A DNA stretch of 58,220 nt, from contig MHEE01000018.1 of the NCBI GenBank assembly GCA_001805105.1, positions 1-58,220 on the forward strand, written 5' to 3'. A program made the position numbers and the translations under genes. Below are positions 1,322 to 17,726 of the stretch, in pieces. This DNA is from Nitrospirae bacterium GWF2_44_13 (lineage in GTDB: Bacteria > Nitrospirota > Thermodesulfovibrionia > Thermodesulfovibrionales > UBA1546). The notes under the pieces were generated by a model, which worked only from the letters and a program-made list of their open reading frames with translations, was not told the origin of the DNA and made no database searches. The first letter of the stretch is position 1. Every line of letters begins with the position of its first letter.

Positions 1322-2968
1322 ATGTTTTGTAATCAATGTGAACAAGTTGCAAAAGGCGGTGCATGCCGCACCATAGGAGTCTGCGGAAAGCAGCCTGATA
1401 CAGCAGCGCTTCAGGACTTGCTTATTTATGCGCTCAAGGGGCTTTCCTGCTATGTAGCAGCAGGGAGAAAAGCAGGCATTGTTGACCGAGATGTGAATGT
1501 GTTTACAGTGAGGGCTCTTTTCTCAACCCTTACCAATGTGAGCTTTGACGCCGAAACCATCAGCAATCTCATTTACCGCTGTGTAGAATTGAGGGAGCAG
1601 TTAAAGGAAAAGGTAAAGGCTGCAGGGGTTGATATAAAAGAAACAGAGCCCGCATTGTTCAAACCTGCAAAGACCATTTCAGAGCTTGTGAAGCAGGGAG
1701 AGGAGATAACAGGCATTAGGGCAAAGAGTTCTGTTAATCCTGATATTCAGTCCCTGCAAGAAATCCTGCTTTATGGATTAAAAGGCATTGCTGCATATGC
1801 AGACCATGCCCAAATATTAGGACAGGAAGATGATAAGGTTTACTCCTTCATTCATGAAAGCCTTGATGCACTGGCAAGGAATGAGTCTTCACTTGGAGAT
1901 TGGCTTAACAGTGTGCTTAAGGCAGGAGAGATAAACCTGAAGGTCATGGAGCTTCTTGATACAGCGAATACAGGGAAATACGGACATCCTGTGCCTACAA
2001 AGGTTCCTCTCGGCGTTAAAAAAGGAAAGGCGATACTCGTTTCAGGCCATGACCTGAAAGACCTTGAGGATATCTTGAAACAAAGTGAAGGCAGGGGTAT
2101 CTATGTATATACCCACGGCGAGATGCTTTCATGCCACGGCTATCCTGAATTGAAAAAATATAAGCGCTTCTACGGCCACTACGGAACAGCATGGCAGAAC
2201 CAGCAAAAGGCGTTCGCAGAGTTTCCGGGCGCTATTGTCATGACAACAAACTGCATCCAAAAACCTGTGGAATCATATTCAGACAGGATATTCACGAGTG
2301 GGGTTGTGAGCTGGACAGGAATTCAGCACATATCTAATGGTGACTTCACATCTGTTGTAGAAAAGGCGCTTGCACTGCCAGGATTCCCTGAAGACATGGA
2401 AGGAAAGACAGTAATGACAGGCTTTGCAAGGAATGCAGTATTGTCTGTCGCAGACAAGATAATAGAGGCTGTGAAGAGCAAGGATATACGCCACTTCTTC
2501 CTTGTTGCAGGCTGTGACGGAGCAAAACCGGGAAGGAACTACTACACCGAATTTGTGGAAAAGGTTCCCAAAGACTGTGTTGTCATGACACTGGCATGCG
2601 GTAAGTTCAGATTCTTTGATAAAGACCTCGGAGACATCGGGGGAATCCCTCGCCTTCTTGATATAGGACAGTGCAATGATGCATACTCGGCAATACAGAT
2701 AGCGGTTGCCCTCTCAAAGGCATTTAATGTGAATGTGAATGACCTGCCGCTCTCGATTGTGCTTTCGTGGTATGAACAAAAGGCAGTAGCTATATTGCTC
2801 ACACTCTTATATCTCGGGATTAAGGACATAAGGCTTGGGCCATCACTCCCTGCATTTGTAACGCCTAATGTGCTGGATGTGCTTGTAGAGAAGTTTAATA
2901 TCAAGCCGATTACAACACCCAGCGAAGATTTGGCAGAGATCCTCGGCAATGATGCAGAAACCTGTTAA
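1322..2968 (+). CDS. hcp: Hydroxylamine reductase / hybrid cluster protein (class 1)
   Basis: Hcp is a cytoplasmic iron-sulfur protein. It reduces hydroxylamine to ammonia in vitro and is linked to nitric oxide detoxification and protein S-nitrosylation in vivo. The 548-residue product starts MFCNQCEQ with cysteines at 3, 6, 15 and 21. That CX2CX8CX5C pattern is the class-1 form of strict anaerobes, which binds the N-terminal [4Fe-4S] cluster. Hybrid-cluster ligands are expected in the C-terminal half, where segments such as TNCIQKP, VAGCDGAKPGRNYY and GQCNDAYSA are typical. The ATG follows an AGGAG sequence with about 9-nt spacing. No hcr reductase gene follows, as is normal for class 1. It is monocistronic behind the FNR-like site at 1214-1229. 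Confidence 0.97.
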   Translation: MFCNQCEQVAKGGACRTIGVCGKQPDTAALQDLLIYALKGLSCYVAAGRKAGIVDRDVNVFTVRALFSTLTNVSFDAETISNLIYRCVELREQLKEKVKAAGVDIKETEPALFKPAKTISELVKQGEEITGIRAKSSVNPDIQSLQEILLYGLKGIAAYADHAQILGQEDDKVYSFIHESLDALARNESSLGDWLNSVLKAGEINLKVMELLDTANTGKYGHPVPTKVPLGVKKGKAILVSGHDLKDLEDILKQSEGRGIYVYTHGEMLSCHGYPELKKYKRFYGHYGTAWQNQQKAFAEFPGAIVMTTNCIQKPVESYSDRIFTSGVVSWTGIQHISNGDFTSVVEKALALPGFPEDMEGKTVMTGFARNAVLSVADKIIEAVKSKDIRHFFLVAGCDGAKPGRNYYTEFVEKVPKDCVVMTLACGKFRFFDKDLGDIGGIPRLLDIGQCNDAYSAIQIAVALSKAFNVNVNDLPLSIVLSWYEQKAVAILLTLLYLGIKDIRLGPSLPAFVTPNVLDVLVEKFNIKPITTPSEDLAEILGNDAETC

Positions 2969-3768: not shown

Positions 3769-5865
3769 CTATTTCTTGCTTGAAATAAATACGCCGTCCC
3801 AATCAGGAGGAGGCGGTGTTTGAATATATTCACGGCATCTTTCAGCATAAAGTTTTGCCACGGGGTCGCTGTATTCGCCTAAAAGCCCTGTAAAAATATC
3901 AAGCGCATTCTGAAAACCCTTTGCCCTGTAAACCTTCAGCGCCCCGGAAAATCCCTCGGCCAGCTTGACATTGCCGTCTGTAATTAACTCAAAAATCGCA
4001 ACGGGTTTTTCCTTTCCCACAACTCTCATAAGATCTATTTCCCTTAACATAAATTTGCCCTTTACCTTTGAAGCAGTAAACTCGCTCAGGATTATATGGG
4101 TGCCGTAATACTTGTTCTGCCCCTCAAGCCTTGAAGCCAGGTTTACCGTGTCGCCAATCGCCGTATAATCAAATCTCATATCCGCTCCCATATTGCCGAC
4201 AACAGCATATCCGGTATTTATGCCTATTCCTATATCAACAGGAGGAAGCCCTTTCTGTTTAAAACTGCTGTTTATTTCCTTCAATTTATCAATCATTTCT
4301 TTTGCTGTCCTGCATGCCTTTTCAGGGTGATCCGTTACATCCAGAGGTGCGTTATAAATTGCCATCACCGCGTCTCCGATATACTTATCCAACGTCCCTT
4401 TATTTTTCAGGACAACCTCTGTCATAGGGCCAAGATATTCGTTAAGGAGCGAGACAAGCACATCAGGAGCAAGCTTTTCCGAGATGCCCGTAAACCCTCT
4501 TATGTCTGAAAACAGAACCGTTATCTCTTTCTTTGCGCCTCCGAGCGCGAGCCTGTCAGGATTCTTTATTATCTCAGCAACAAGCTCTGGCGAAACATAA
4601 CTCGAAAACGCCTTTTTAAGGTAGCGGTTTTTTCTCTCCACCACAAGGTTCCTGTATGCCTCAGAGCTTATAAATGCCATCGCTGTTGAGGAAAGCGGGT
4701 ACAGCAAACTCATGTCTATGGAATAATTTCTGAACAACAGATAATTGAAAACAGCATATATGCCAGACACAAACATAAAAGCAACAAGCCCCAAAAAGCT
4801 GTTCCTCAATACGCCGAGAAGCAATGTAAGGATTACGGGGAATAACGCCAAACATAAAATCTCAATCGCAATTATCCTTCCATCCCTTAATATGAATCTG
4901 CCCTGAAGAGCATTGGACGCTACAGTTGCATGTATCTCAACTCCGGGGAATGCGGACTCAACAGGAGTTGCCCTCATGTCATAGATGCCGACCTCTGTCG
5001 CGCCCACAAATACAATGCTGTCCTTGAGTTCTTCTTTTTTGATCCTCTTTTTAATAACGTCAACTGCTGACAGCGTGGTGATAGTCCCGCCTTTGCCGTA
5101 GTAATTCACGGTAAGCCTTCCGCTTTCATCAGAAGGAATAGACATATCTCCAAGCCTGAGCAATGAAACGCCAAAAGGTTCCACTTCAAGCATGACCTCC
5201 TTGCCTGTGTAATGCCGCAAGGCCTTTAATGCCAGCGAGGGATAAATTTCTCCGTTATAAAGCATAAGAAGCGTGGATTTTCTTACAGGGCCGTCAGAAT
5301 CAGGGTCTGTATTGAAAAAGCCAAAATCCAGAGCGCCGCGTCCGAGCAAGGGGATATTTGTCTCCACAAAAGGACGCTGATATACTGGAACCTCAGTCAC
5401 ACCTTCTGCAATCTTCAGAAGCTTTATTTTTGAAGACTCTATCTGGGATATAGCCCTTGGGTTTGACTCTTCTTTTTCATCTCTGAAAAAATAACCGAGG
5501 ATTACACTGCCGTTTTTTTCTATGGCTTTGGAAAGGACTGCGTCTTCTCTGCCCTCCGAAGGTTCGGAGAAAACAATATCCAGCGCTGTTACCTTTACCC
5601 CGTATTCTTTCAAGCTATTCAGAAGCCCTGCAAACACAGACCTCTTCCAAGGCCATCTGCCGAGTTCATTGATACTCTTTGAATCTATGGCAACTATCAC
5701 AACCCTTTTGTCAGGCTGAATATTTTTCCGGATTTTAAATCTTGCGTCCTTGAGCTTCAGGTCTACCGCATCAAGGAAATGAAAATTCTGTCTGTAAATG
5801 AAAAAGGTCAGAACTGAAGCAAGAAGACCAATTACAATAAAGGTCAGCAGTTTGGAGTATTTCAT
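3769..5865 (-). CDS. CHASE2-domain adenylate/guanylate cyclase (class III)
   Basis: A 698-residue membrane receptor cyclase that would turn an extracytoplasmic signal into cAMP (or cGMP). After one N-terminal transmembrane helix (about 7-27) comes a CHASE2 sensor domain (about 30-330, with VVIVAIDSKS and FVGATEVGIYDMR), then three closely spaced membrane helices (about 333-400). The catalytic domain (about 445-620) has the metal-binding Asp in LFSDIRGFTG, the second in YIGDAVMAIYN, and the DTVNLASRLEGQN segment. A short TPR-like tail follows. The FecR/TPR gene lies upstream on the same strand 46 bp away and is probably co-transcribed. CHASE2 cyclases are often paired with FecR-like proteins, and the ligand is unknown. 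Confidence 0.93.
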   Translation of the reverse strand: MKYSKLLTFIVIGLLASVLTFFIYRQNFHFLDAVDLKLKDARFKIRKNIQPDKRVVIVAIDSKSINELGRWPWKRSVFAGLLNSLKEYGVKVTALDIVFSEPSEGREDAVLSKAIEKNGSVILGYFFRDEKEESNPRAISQIESSKIKLLKIAEGVTEVPVYQRPFVETNIPLLGRGALDFGFFNTDPDSDGPVRKSTLLMLYNGEIYPSLALKALRHYTGKEVMLEVEPFGVSLLRLGDMSIPSDESGRLTVNYYGKGGTITTLSAVDVIKKRIKKEELKDSIVFVGATEVGIYDMRATPVESAFPGVEIHATVASNALQGRFILRDGRIIAIEILCLALFPVILTLLLGVLRNSFLGLVAFMFVSGIYAVFNYLLFRNYSIDMSLLYPLSSTAMAFISSEAYRNLVVERKNRYLKKAFSSYVSPELVAEIIKNPDRLALGGAKKEITVLFSDIRGFTGISEKLAPDVLVSLLNEYLGPMTEVVLKNKGTLDKYIGDAVMAIYNAPLDVTDHPEKACRTAKEMIDKLKEINSSFKQKGLPPVDIGIGINTGYAVVGNMGADMRFDYTAIGDTVNLASRLEGQNKYYGTHIILSEFTASKVKGKFMLREIDLMRVVGKEKPVAIFELITDGNVKLAEGFSGALKVYRAKGFQNALDIFTGLLGEYSDPVAKLYAERCREYIQTPPPPDWDGVFISSKK

Positions 5866-9338: not shown

Positions 9339-10580
9339 ATGTTAGTTTTTCTAAGTTGGTCGGGACCAAAGAGTAAAATAATAGCTGAAACGCTGAAGCA
9401 GTGGCTTGTTCAGGTAATTCAGGCAGTTGATCCTTGGATGTCCTCTGATATAGCGAAGGGTAGCCGTTGGAATTCTGAAGTCGCCGCAAAACTCGAAGAC
9501 TCAAAGTTTGCCATCATCTGCCTCACCCGCGAAAACTTAGATGCACGATGGATACTATTTGAAGCAGGTGCCGTTTCCAAACTTAATGATTCCTCAGTTT
9601 GCACTTTTTTACTTGATATTACACCCGCCGAGGTGGAACAACCGTTGAGCCAGTTTCAGCATACTACAATTGAAAAAAGCGATTTCCGTAAACTAGCGCA
9701 TACGATTAATGATGCTGTTTTGCGTGCAGGTGAGAGAAGTCTTCCGGCACAAACGTTGGATGGTATTTTTGAAACCTTCTGGCCACAGTTGCAAGAGGCG
9801 TTGGTAGATATTAGTGAAATGCAATACGCAGAAGAACGGAAGCCACGAACTGACCGGGCAATCCTTGAGGAAATTGTTGAAATACTTAGGAATCAGGAGC
9901 GTAGACAAAGTGGTAAGACAGAAGAAGTCCATCTCCGGCCTTCTGACAATACACAGGCTTTCCCCGGAAAAGACATCATCAAAGCGTGGCTAACAATGAG
10001 ATTACACGCATTTGAGACGGCAATCTTTGCCGGACATCTTCGATATATGCTGTTCGATATGAAAAAAAAGAAATATGTCTTTGATAAATCTCTTGCAATT
10101 AGGAACAGGGAAGGTATCTGGGTTGTAAACAGACGGCACGCACAGATAGCCATTATCGATGACGCAGGCAAGGTTTTAGAGGAGATTCGAGTTGGCTATG
10201 GAGATAGGATTATGCTTCCTGACGGTAGTGCTGCAGCCGCCAACCAAAAACTCATCCAGAGAGATCCTCTTTCAACACCGATAATAACGGAGGTTGGCGG
10301 AAAAGTTGCCTTTGGTGATTTGATCGAAAATGTTAGTTTCGTAGAAGAGGTGGACACATTTACAGGACAAAAATTCAAAGTCATAATCGATTGGCCGAGC
10401 AGTCTCAGACCCCGTATCGCATTAAAAGACAATAAAGGGCGAACAGTGAAACTGCCGGGAACAGATTATCCAGCCCGTTATCTTCTTCCCGCTGGCACCA
10501 TTATATTAGTTGAAAAGGGGGATGATTTAGTCGCTGGCGATGTATTGGGAAGGATTCCGATTGAAATCACTGCGGCTTAA
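9339..10580 (+). CDS. TIR-domain protein fused to an RNA polymerase beta-prime SI3-like domain
   Basis: I know no described family with this architecture. Residues about 1-150 are a bacterial TIR domain: MLVFLSWSG (strand A), SSDIAKGSRWNSEVAAKLED, FAIICLTREN, and ARWILFEAGA, where E75 is the expected NADase catalytic glutamate. Residues about 160-190 are a helical linker. Residues about 246-409 align along their length with residues 947-1111 of the beta-prime subunit at 46602-50717, with roughly 70 identities over 160 columns by hand and one gap. Shared strings include TPIITEVGG, AFGD, VIID, RPRI and ARYLLPAG. In beta-prime this region is SI3, the sandwich-barrel-hybrid insertion in the trigger loop. 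The copy stops just before the conserved ITGGLPRV trigger helix. Own promoter, Shine-Dalgarno and terminator make it a single-gene cassette. A defence role is inference: TIR domains of immune systems hydrolyse NAD+ on sensing infection, and SI3 could be the sensor. Confidence 0.9.
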   Translation: MLVFLSWSGPKSKIIAETLKQWLVQVIQAVDPWMSSDIAKGSRWNSEVAAKLEDSKFAIICLTRENLDARWILFEAGAVSKLNDSSVCTFLLDITPAEVEQPLSQFQHTTIEKSDFRKLAHTINDAVLRAGERSLPAQTLDGIFETFWPQLQEALVDISEMQYAEERKPRTDRAILEEIVEILRNQERRQSGKTEEVHLRPSDNTQAFPGKDIIKAWLTMRLHAFETAIFAGHLRYMLFDMKKKKYVFDKSLAIRNREGIWVVNRRHAQIAIIDDAGKVLEEIRVGYGDRIMLPDGSAAAANQKLIQRDPLSTPIITEVGGKVAFGDLIENVSFVEEVDTFTGQKFKVIIDWPSSLRPRIALKDNKGRTVKLPGTDYPARYLLPAGTIILVEKGDDLVAGDVLGRIPIEITAA

Positions 10581-14912: not shown

Positions 14913-15515
14913 TCATATCCAAACAACTTTCTGAAAGTCCTTAATCCCCTCTACAATATGATTTGTGGTGCCGCGGTATCCAACCTTCAATTCCGATTCA
15001 ATATCATAGTATTTCAGGCATGTGCCGCATGAAAATATCTCAACTCCCATTCCTTCGATTTCCTTGAGTATTGGAATAACATCTTCATTGCCGGTGGTCA
15101 ATTTCACTCCCGCATTTAAAAAAAATATTGTGTGAGGAATTTCTTTAGTTGCCTTCATTGTCTCAAAAAAACCCTTGATTAATACCTTGCCAAGCGATTC
15201 CTCTTTTCCCATCGTATCTGTACCGATGATAAGCAGGAGATCTTTCTTTTTTTCTTCTGACTCTAAACTCTGACCCTCAAACCCTGCACTCTCTTTCTCG
15301 CACGAATGACCCTTCACTATTTTTACACGCCAGCAGCCATCTTGTTTTTCTACCTCGGAGTAACAACCGCTTTTGGCTGCAAATCTTGAAAGATTCTCTA
15401 CGGAAGCCTCATTGTCAACAAGTACCTCAACAATACCTTCCTGGATTATAGAAAGGGCTTCTTCCGCCATCATGAGAGGCTTCGGGCATCCAAGGCCTCT
15501 CGCATCTATGAGCAT
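14913..15515 (-). CDS. yedF: YedF: TusA-DsrE fusion, sulfurtransferase-like selenium-metabolism protein
   Basis: A 200-residue two-domain protein of the YedF family, which co-occurs with selenium-utilisation genes. Residues 1-70 are a TusA-like domain (MLIDARGLGCPKPLMMAEEA) with the conserved Cys at position 10. A polar linker (about 70-90) connects to a DsrE/DsrF-like domain (about 92-200) with LLIIGTDTMGKE, HTIFFLNAGVKL and the SCGTCLKYYD cysteine pair. Proteins of this type are thought to carry sulfur or selenium as persulfide/perselenide. AAAGGAG precedes the ATG. It is the next gene downstream of the selenocysteine-type tRNA on the same strand, 80 bp away, and the LysR gene further upstream is also of a selenium-associated type. 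Confidence 0.9.
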   Translation of the reverse strand: MLIDARGLGCPKPLMMAEEALSIIQEGIVEVLVDNEASVENLSRFAAKSGCYSEVEKQDGCWRVKIVKGHSCEKESAGFEGQSLESEEKKKDLLLIIGTDTMGKEESLGKVLIKGFFETMKATKEIPHTIFFLNAGVKLTTGNEDVIPILKEIEGMGVEIFSCGTCLKYYDIESELKVGYRGTTNHIVEGIKDFQKVVWI

Positions 15516-15595: not shown

Positions 15596-15691
15596 TGGAG
15601 AGGAGTAGTGGGAATCGAACCCACCACGGCAAATCTTGTTACCGTAATACTGGTTTTGCAGACCAGACGGGGCACCAGCCCCATACCCCTC
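15596..15691 (-). tRNA. Selenocysteine-type tRNA body with cysteine anticodon GCA and U73
   Basis: The 96-nt RNA folds as a bacterial tRNA-Sec. It has an 8-bp acceptor stem (GAGGGGTA/TACTCCTC, one G-U), a long D stem (GGGGC/GCCCC, possibly extended by U-G) closed by a 4-nt loop UGGU, and an anticodon stem CTGGT/ACCAG. The variable arm is 7 bp (ACGGTAA/TTGCCGT) with a 6-nt loop. The T stem is 5 bp (GTGGG/CCCAC) with loop TTCGATT, giving an 8/5 branch, and CCA is encoded. The 7-nt loop CTGCAAA places the anticodon GCA at 15657-15659, which reads Cys UGC/UGU instead of UGA. The discriminator is U73, a CysRS identity base; tRNA-Sec normally has G73. Its 5' end is 4 bp after the transglutaminase stop, and yedF follows. 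It may insert Cys or Sec at Cys codons. Confidence 0.88.
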
Positions 15692-15695
15692 GTTC

Positions 15696-16724
15696 CTAAA
15701 GCTCTTTAAAGCTTATCTTGTATCCAAGATTGAATCCGAACAGATCCTCATTTAATGCCTTTCCATCAACCTCTGCATAAGGATACATAAAGTAATTCAG
15801 CTTCCCATCTTTCTGCGCCGGATTAAGTATTAGGTCTCTGCCGGACTGATATGCAATTCTGCTCTCATCGACCGCGCCAAAGAAATACTCAACAAGCGAT
15901 TTAACATCATTTAAATTGTCTGTTTTTTTCTCAAGCATTGCCTTTCTGACATCGGAGGGGTCAACGGGAACCCATCCGTATCCCGGCACATAAAACTCTG
16001 CCCAGCAGTGCTGGTTCTTTGTCATATCTCCTGTCTTGCCTTTGGGCATGCGTATACCGAATATCTCTCTTGCCGGAACCCCGGCGCTTCTTGAAAGGGC
16101 AACAAACACAGAACTAATATCTCCACACTTGCCTCCAAGTGAAACAATGAGCTTTTCGACCTCGCCGAAGCCGCAGCCCTTTACATCCGGGTCACGATGC
16201 ATGTTATTCACGATCCAGTCGTAAACTGCCCTTGCCTTTGCTAAATTGGAGCTTTTGCCTTTTGTAATCTGTGCTGCAAGATATTTAACCTTTCCGTCGG
16301 TAGGGCCAAGCCTTGTTGCTTTTAAATAGCCTTTGAATTCTTCCTTTGAAAAAGACAATTCCCTTTCAGGGAAATCCGCCTTAACCGCCTCATTTCTTTT
16401 AACCTTAAAGGAATACGTCAAAACTCTTTCTTTTAAAGCTCCATTCCATTCAGCATAGAGCGCCATATTGCCGTATCTGCCTTCCCTGTAAATGCCGCTT
16501 TTTGAAAAATTACCGGTAATATTTACATCTTCAATTGTCTGGTTCTCGTCCGATACCGGATAGGGAATCCACAAACTCACCCTCTTTGATTCTGCCTTAG
16601 CCTGCAGGTTTACATTAATAGTAACCTCTGCTCTTCGTTCTTTAACCTTGACACCTGCCGCAAAAGTAATTGCTGCAAGAGAAAAGGCCACTATCGCTGC
16701 AAAGACAAATCCACGCGCTTTCAC
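15696..16724 (-). CDS. Exported transglutaminase-like (cysteine protease fold) protein
   Basis: A 342-residue protein with a signal peptide (about residues 1-23). Its Ig/beta-rich N-terminal half (about 28-135) has VSLWIPYPVSDENQ, and the transglutaminase core spans about 145-265. The catalytic triad is visible: C200 in GGKCGDISSVF, H239 in NQHCWAEFYV and D255 in VPVDPSD. Bacterial proteins of this class act as periplasmic proteases, amidases or cross-linkers, and the substrate is unknown. The stop codon lies 4 bp from the 5' end of the selenocysteine-type tRNA on the same strand, so the tRNA may be processed from this gene's transcript. Confidence 0.88.
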   Translation of the reverse strand: MKARGFVFAAIVAFSLAAITFAAGVKVKERRAEVTINVNLQAKAESKRVSLWIPYPVSDENQTIEDVNITGNFSKSGIYREGRYGNMALYAEWNGALKERVLTYSFKVKRNEAVKADFPERELSFSKEEFKGYLKATRLGPTDGKVKYLAAQITKGKSSNLAKARAVYDWIVNNMHRDPDVKGCGFGEVEKLIVSLGGKCGDISSVFVALSRSAGVPAREIFGIRMPKGKTGDMTKNQHCWAEFYVPGYGWVPVDPSDVRKAMLEKKTDNLNDVKSLVEYFFGAVDESRIAYQSGRDLILNPAQKDGKLNYFMYPYAEVDGKALNEDLFGFNLGYKISFKEL

Positions 16725-16835: not shown

Positions 16836-17726
16836 CTATGCTTTGCCTTTGAGGTAAAGGTAATCGATGAAAAGCCGGTAACTTTTCGGAAACGTGCGCT
16901 TTCTGTGGGTGATAATATAAAAACTTCTCTTCATATTAAGCCCCTTTACTTTTACCTCCCTGAGTATTCCCAGCTTAAGGTCGTCTCTTACGGCCACTCT
17001 GGAAAGAATGGAAGCGCCAAGCCCTGATTTTACGGCTTCCTTTACAGCATCCGTAGAGCCTAAGACAGCAACAACATTTAGGTCTTTTACATCAATGCCC
17101 CTCCCTGAGAGATGCCTTTCCATTGTCTTTCTTGTACCGGAACCTTCTTCTCTCAGCAAAAAAGGCATACCGGTTATGTTTTTCATAGAAATGGTTTTCC
17201 TGCCCAAAGCCTTAGCAGATGAAACTAATATAAGCTCATCCTCAACAAGAGGGCGGTATTCCAGCTTTCTGTTCTCCATCTTTGCTCCTACAATACCAAG
17301 AAGCAATTGATCACATGCCACCATATCAGTTATCTTTTTTGAGTCTTCTATAATCACCTGAAAAGATATTTCCTTATATTTCTTTTTGAATTCTGAAACA
17401 ATGGATGGAATTATATATGTTCCCGGTATGGTGCTTGCGCCAATTATAATTTCTCCTCCTATGTCGTCTTTGATCCGGCAGATGCCGGATTTGATTTCTT
17501 CAAGGTTTTCTATTATCTCGGAGGCGCGAGAATAAAGAAGTTCGGCTTCTTTTGTCGGGATTATTGTCCTCCCTACCCTGTCAAAAAGTTTGCAGCCGAG
17601 TTCATCTTCAACAGCCTTTATATGACTGCTTATGGTAGGCTGCGTCAGGCTAAGCTGTTCCGAGGCTTTTGAGAAGCTCCTGTTTTTAAATACGGCTGTA
17701 AAAACTTTAAGGTGATGTATATCCAT
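16836..17726 (-). CDS. LysR-family regulator, selenium-metabolism-associated type
   Basis: A 296-residue LysR-type transcriptional regulator. The N-terminal winged HTH (residues 1-60: DIHHLKVFTAVFKNRSFSKA, LTQPTISSHIKAVEDELGCK, LFDRVGRTIIPTKEAELLY) is followed by a two-lobed effector domain (about 90-290; ILVSSAKALG, LREEGSGTRKTMERHL). The N-terminal wording closely resembles the subfamily that annotators call selenium metabolism-associated LysR regulators; this is from memory and untested here. The nearby YedF and Sec-type tRNA agree with that. It ends a tightly spaced operon (14 bp after acpS) and precedes the transglutaminase, tRNA and yedF on the same strand, which may be its targets. Confidence 0.87.
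   Translation of the reverse strand: MDIHHLKVFTAVFKNRSFSKASEQLSLTQPTISSHIKAVEDELGCKLFDRVGRTIIPTKEAELLYSRASEIIENLEEIKSGICRIKDDIGGEIIIGASTIPGTYIIPSIVSEFKKKYKEISFQVIIEDSKKITDMVACDQLLLGIVGAKMENRKLEYRPLVEDELILVSSAKALGRKTISMKNITGMPFLLREEGSGTRKTMERHLSGRGIDVKDLNVVAVLGSTDAVKEAVKSGLGASILSRVAVRDDLKLGILREVKVKGLNMKRSFYIITHRKRTFPKSYRLFIDYLYLKGKA

Follow-up and report, generated by a model that had tools for sequence, protein, structure and literature searches.

The window analyzed here, the whole 58,220-nt stretch of DNA from Nitrospirae bacterium GWF2_44_13, carries a tRNA gene on its minus strand at positions 15596 to 15691. ARAGORN identified it as tRNA-Cys with anticodon GCA, and the best-matching Rfam family was tRNA-Sec (RF01852; 60.3 bits against a cut-off of 47; E values of 8.7e-10 in the window search and 7.1e-12 in the genome search). 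The gene's tRNA is a tRNA-Sec by architecture and a tRNA-Cys by anticodon. The acceptor stem, read from the sequence, is GAGGGGUA/UACUCCUC, with 8 bp including one G.U pair, and together with the 5-bp T stem (GUGGG/CCCAC) it makes an 8/5 acceptor-T branch of 13 bp. The D stem (GGGGC/GCCCC) closes a 4-nt loop (UGGU), the anticodon stem (CUGGU/ACCAG) closes the loop CUGCAAA, and the long variable arm has five firm pairs (ACGGU/GCCGU), or seven with two terminal U.G pairs included. The anticodon lies at 15657 to 15659 (minus strand) according to both the sequence and ARAGORN, the discriminator U73 lies at 15599 (minus strand), and the encoded CCA lies at 15596 to 15598. An earlier sequence-only reading had described a Sec-type body with GCA, U73, and CCA and had proposed covariance-model scoring; ARAGORN, the Rfam score, and the sequence itself bear this description out, and of the seven variable-arm pairs that it claimed, five are firm.

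The tRNA gene is part of a minus-strand block in the order LysR_Se, transglutaminase-like gene, tRNA, and yedF. LysR_Se, a selenium metabolism-associated LysR regulator, is encoded at 16836 to 17726 (NF040786; 307.6 bits, cut-off 250). It is followed by a gene at 15696 to 16724 for a transglutaminase-like protein (PF01841; 93.4 bits) with a likely signal peptide, as read from the sequence. The tRNA begins 4 nt past this ORF, and yedF, located at 14913 to 15515, begins 80 nt past the tRNA and encodes a selenium metabolism protein with SirA/TusA-like and DsrE-like parts (TIGR03527; 202.2 bits, cut-off 110). A promoter scan found no excess of sites over shuffles. Elsewhere in the window, between glyQ and glyS on the plus strand (9339 to 10580), there is a gene for a TIR-domain protein (PF13676), the C-terminal half of which matches RNA polymerase beta' models and which is possibly a defence gene.

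Conservation and distribution of the GCA/U73 tRNA

Homologues were collected from 40 Nitrospirota genomes picked for having at least two tRNA-Sec matches, which provided 37 further matches of at least 89 nt. The same GCA/U73 kind was found in 36 of these 37 second-best matches, and the remaining one, L065, was a tRNA-Ser and was left out of the alignment of the window tRNA with its 36 homologues. GCA, U73, and CCA were present in all 37 aligned sequences, and the named pairs were formed in 92.1% of the cells. Both sides had changed in 19 of the 28 pairs, whereas shuffled alignments had a mean of 10.5 (none of 500 shuffles was as high) and slid controls gave 5 to 8 pairs. Because the tRNA is conserved across these homologues, chance and sequencing error are excluded; an error in the anticodon, visible as UCA in relatives, had been named beforehand as grounds for rejecting the sequence-only reading, and it is contradicted by GCA in 37 of 37 sequences. 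Greatly enlarged variable arms were seen at two loci, L052 (tRNA at 2174 to 2292, minus strand; 119 nt) and L073 (tRNA at 3994 to 4120, plus strand; 127 nt).

A covariance model built from the alignment gave the GCA/U73 kind 72 to 103 bits and tRNA-Sec at most 64 bits in a test on 25 sources. According to this model, the tRNA is carried by 62 of 395 Nitrospirota genomes, every one of them within the window's own class, and carriage is patchy, with two of the five genomes of its own genus having it. A pattern scan of 84,980 named species genomes returned 65 loci, mostly in Nitrospirota. Two others came from Thermoleophilia and have U73, one is a common tRNA whose variable loop is short, and a Burkholderiales set has G73. 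A GCA/U73 tRNA like that of the window is thus carried by the Thermoleophilia metagenome-assembled genomes (L172, L183; L338, L350), and of these two genomes one has a UCA tRNA-Sec as well. No phage copies were found by a pattern scan of viral_contigs.

The gene has the appearance of a chimera. In 38 of 46 comparisons, the T stem had the same 5' strand as the tRNA-Sec of the same genome. The window tRNA and the normal tRNA-Cys of its own genome share the anticodon stem-loop core GGUCUGCAAAACC exactly, but the T arm and acceptor of that tRNA-Cys are different. The shared Sec T stem and the shared Cys anticodon core indicate that the body is Sec-like and that the parts read by CysRS are Cys-like. 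All 48 canonical tRNA-Sec genes read had UCA and G73. GCA and U73 are the identity elements of CysRS, and G73 is that of SerRS (excerpts of PMC7609411 and PMC9976931).

Selenium-related neighbors and selenocysteine machinery

The neighborhood was surveyed at 49 tRNA loci, three short loci having been swapped for longer ones. Genes near the tRNA encode YedF (24 loci), LysR family proteins (18), split-Soret cytochrome family proteins (14), transglutaminases (8), a double-cubane reductase (7) and its activase (7), SelB (5), a TsuA/YedE-like transporter (5, mostly directly after the tRNA), a selenocysteine-lyase-like cysteine desulfurase (4), and rhodanese (4). Selenium-linked genes listed previously include those for LysR_Se, YedF, YedE, Sec lyase, activase, 2-hydroxyglutaryl-CoA dehydratase, and transglutaminase, and selenophosphate is the probable signal sensed by LysR_Se (excerpt of PMC5322559). 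Since the neighbors match this list, the tRNA belongs to a selenium-homeostasis neighborhood.

For further comparison, 40 carriers and 40 non-carriers were hand-picked from the 395 Nitrospirota genomes. yedF lay within 6 kb of the tRNA in 22 of the 40 carriers, and among 23 tRNA-yedF pairs it was downstream in 22 and on the same strand in 19. As a control, none of 47 canonical tRNA-Sec genes from yedF-bearing genomes had yedF within 6 kb (48 before G032, the listed match of which was the GCA/U73 tRNA, was left out). yedF occurred in 35 of the 40 carriers, compared with 17 of 40 SelA-positive non-carriers (Fisher test, 4e-5, with ancestry ignored). This gene setting suggests a selenium-responsive backup, perhaps for UGA-coded SelD. 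The literature searched, which covers few subscription papers and gives only a weak negative, held no description of the linkage of such a tRNA to yedF and LysR_Se.

The source genome (1.99 Mb, 18 contigs, 100% complete) contains two matches over the tRNA-Sec cut-off, the window tRNA and a canonical tRNA-Sec with UCA and G73 (G000:C2:32329-32422). It encodes SelA, one SelB, and one full-length CysRS, with no dedicated second SelB or CysRS found, and a normal tRNA-Cys is present among its 46 distinct tRNAs. Its selD (G000:C17:20278-21204) has an in-frame UGA at CAG-U-AAKFSP, and FdhA also has an in-frame UGA, so natural UGA targets are present in this genome. The genome search proposed in the sequence-only reading therefore recovered SelA, SelB, a UGA-containing SelD, the UCA tRNA-Sec, and the normal tRNA-Cys. 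In the 80 comparison genomes, 77 of 78 SelD matches had one in-frame UGA, the exception being a fragment without the N terminus. The tRNA is not required for UGA-coded SelD, because all 77 matches containing the N terminus have the UGA with or without the tRNA. A short hairpin lies downstream of the SelD UGA, and its inner four pairs form in 27 to 30 of 30 SelD genes (L303 to L332; 31 before a false SelD motif match in G120 was left out). Protein-level sequence constraint may be an alternative cause of this conservation.

SelA was found in 59 of the 62 carriers in the phylum-wide set of 395 genomes. Inside the class, the presence of the tRNA does not follow that of SelA, since the tRNA also occurs in 3 of the 13 genomes listed as lacking SelA; the SelA-tRNA link therefore cannot be separated from ancestry. 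The same three genomes led us to reject Sec machinery as a strict requirement. Most carriers have a single SelB and no special CysRS. In five loci from four related genomes, SelB starts at or just past the tRNA, and these SelB copies keep the DR motif in the alignment, the residues of which we take to be the Sec pocket. A CysRS-like gene of ~400 amino acids without the C-terminal end was seen in 19 of 80 genomes (e.g., L258, L259, L260, L261, and L262); 12 of these were among the 40 carriers and 7 among the 40 non-carriers. A role for these short genes was dropped, as they occur in non-carriers too and their coordinates place none of them next to the tRNA. Among the best 10 candidates per genome, no canonical tRNA-Sec was seen in the SelA-bearing carriers G032 and G090, and possibly none in G114, G230, G261, and G357, perhaps as a result of the limit to 10; the stretches around SelA likewise contained no canonical tRNA-Sec.

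Comparison with known tRNAs

A tRNA-Sec-like tRNA-Cys of Desulfotomaculum nigrificans was reportedly described by Vargas-Rodriguez et al. in 2018 and is said to be named tRNA-ReC. Decoding of UGA as Cys by such a tRNA is termed programmed mispairing, and its function has reportedly so far been shown in an E. coli host. The window tRNA resembles the D. nigrificans tRNA in having GCA, a tRNA-Sec-like structure, a coexisting UCA tRNA-Sec, and SelB and CysRS available. Unlike in D. nigrificans, for which function was shown, here we infer it, and the LysR_Se/yedF linkage of the window tRNA was not met in the literature searched. SelB, and not EF-Tu, carries the GCA tRNA of D. nigrificans, which reads Sec UGA as Cys (excerpt of PMC11415595).

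tRNA-Sec-like tRNA-Cys species with U73 and GCA are known from Nitrospirae (excerpt of PMC7609411). The selC* tRNA-Cys that this review credits to Mukai et al. (2017) is like the window tRNA in its tRNA-Sec-like body, U73, and GCA, in having Nitrospirae among its hosts, and in that SelB is beside the tRNA in some lineages. According to the same review, an 8/4 branch with a bulged A51a is characteristic of selC* tRNA-Cys, yet it is dispensable for charging. Unlike this strict form, the window tRNA has an 8/5 branch and no A51a bulge, and an extra T-arm base is absent from all 37 aligned sequences. Also unlike the selC* lineages that have SelB*/CysRS*, the source genome is without a second SelB or a CysRS lacking the anticodon-binding domain. 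Judged by its sequence, the window tRNA is of a kind described before, fitting in every feature compared except the A51a bulge, and we take it as a broader tRNA-Sec-like tRNA-Cys with an 8/5 branch, not the strict 8/4 form. With the canonical tRNA-Sec of its own genome (RF01852) it shares the long acceptor branch, the long variable arm, the 4-nt D loop, and the same T arm; it differs from that copy, which has UCA and G73, also in its acceptor sequence.

The tRNA-Sec of Aeromonas salmonicida likewise combines a Sec body with a Cys anticodon (Mukai et al. 2016). It gives Sec at UGC, unlike the window tRNA, which has U73, pointing to CysRS, in place of the SerRS-type G73, and which coexists with a UCA tRNA-Sec. 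A likely example of the A. salmonicida type was found in Burkholderiales, where the only tRNA-Sec over the cut-off was GCA/G73 in all nine genomes examined (Rubrivivax, Piscinibacter, Leptothrix, and others; L335 to L337 and L339 to L344), out of ~20 such loci from the pattern scan. In Rubrivivax sp. A210, this tRNA follows SelB and faces a formate dehydrogenase (FDH) alpha gene (L360:12270-15242, plus strand) with a UGC codon at the putative Sec position, QARI-C-HSTT; we assume from the FDH motif that this cysteine marks the Sec position. The Burkholderiales are therefore a candidate for lineage-wide Sec at a Cys codon. The arrangement in Rubrivivax sp. A210 is the expected look of such a system and, by difference, suggests that the window tRNA is not one.

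Proposed decoding of UGA and alternative readings

The explanation that we favor, with a probability of roughly 0.7, is that the gene encodes a second, specialized tRNA-Cys on a tRNA-Sec body, which would be charged by CysRS, carried by SelB, and used for Cys at Sec UGA codons. CysRS would recognize U73 and GCA, and the 8-bp acceptor and the Sec-type T stem would keep the tRNA away from EF-Tu and direct it onto SelB. SelB would then take the Cys-tRNA to Sec UGA codons with a SECIS hairpin after them, where GCA would be tolerated despite the G34.A3 mismatch, so that Cys replaces Sec. In the source organism, SelD and FdhA are the predicted natural targets, and the LysR_Se and yedF setting suggests use at low selenophosphate. 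From the sequence, structure, conservation, Sec machinery, UGA genes, and linkage described above, we infer how the tRNA would be charged, delivered by SelB, used at UGA, and regulated. Several points count against this explanation: GCA has to mispair with the last base of UGA, an 8/4 T stem with the A51a bulge was seen in 0 of 37 sequences, a special CysRS or a second SelB is missing from most carriers, carriage and SelA are not matched inside the class, and SelD has its UGA with or without the tRNA. The sequence-only reading had offered a Sec tRNA captured by CysRS, for which the Sec body combined with U73, GCA, and GGUCUGCAAAACC as in the own tRNA-Cys speaks, Sec at Cys codons, which found no support, and a regulatory tRNA-like RNA, which is possible but unlikely; the published reading of Cys at Sec UGA codons was not among its guesses.

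It is unlikely that the gene encodes a minor tRNA-Cys that serves ordinary Cys codons via EF-Tu, or that its product stays uncharged and acts as a regulator or leader of the yedF operon. GCA does pair properly with UGC and UGU, and the position of the tRNA, 4 nt past one ORF and 80 nt ahead of a yedF that is downstream in nearly every pair, is what a leader element needs. However, the identity bases and the CCA are kept and every helix is maintained with covariation, as in a working tRNA, a normal tRNA-Cys is already in the genome, and an 8-bp acceptor weakens EF-Tu binding and favors SelB (excerpt of PMC7609411). We consider it improbable that SelB brings Cys (or Sec) on the window tRNA to chosen Cys codons with a SECIS-like hairpin. 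Codon-anticodon pairing would be perfect there, and neighbors such as YedF and rhodanese are in families that include Sec versions, but such codons are hypothetical, the normal tRNA-Cys would compete, and the organism's own SelD and FdhA use UGA. Most improbable of all is a SerRS-charged, SelA-converted tRNA-Sec that gives Sec at Cys codons in the A. salmonicida manner: the Sec body, the 4-nt D loop, and the likely example in Burkholderiales (G73 and GCA in the sole tRNA-Sec over the cut-off, 9 of 9 genomes) agree with it, but U73 in 37 of 37 sequences against G73 in 48 of 48 UCA tRNA-Sec genes argues against SerRS charging and, with the coexisting UCA tRNA-Sec and the UGA codons of SelD and FdhA, led us to reject it as the main reading.

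With Cys at Sec UGA codons as the preferred reading, the tRNA most likely would let the bacterium use Cys instead of Sec when selenium is short. A tentative extension, possible though doubtful, is a selenium-starvation circuit in which LysR_Se would sense low selenophosphate and switch on the tRNA-yedF block, and the Cys-tRNA and SelB would read the selD UGA, giving Cys-SelD and a partly active FdhA. The literature searched, with few subscription papers in it and hence a weak negative, held no description of such a restart of SelD. If this circuit is real, Cys-SelD would free SelD synthesis from its need for what SelD itself produces, and the tRNA would restart selenium metabolism rather than act as a general suppressor.

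Few natural cases of one codon being deliberately read in two ways are known. Across one class of bacteria, the GCA/U73 tRNA is placed in gene clusters for selenium regulation, with the UGA codons of selD and fdhA as its likely targets, and these clusters and named targets make its function testable in natural hosts, including cultured Thermodesulfovibrio. The discriminator base separates two look-alike tRNAs with GCA, U73 marking the one for Cys and G73 the one for Sec.
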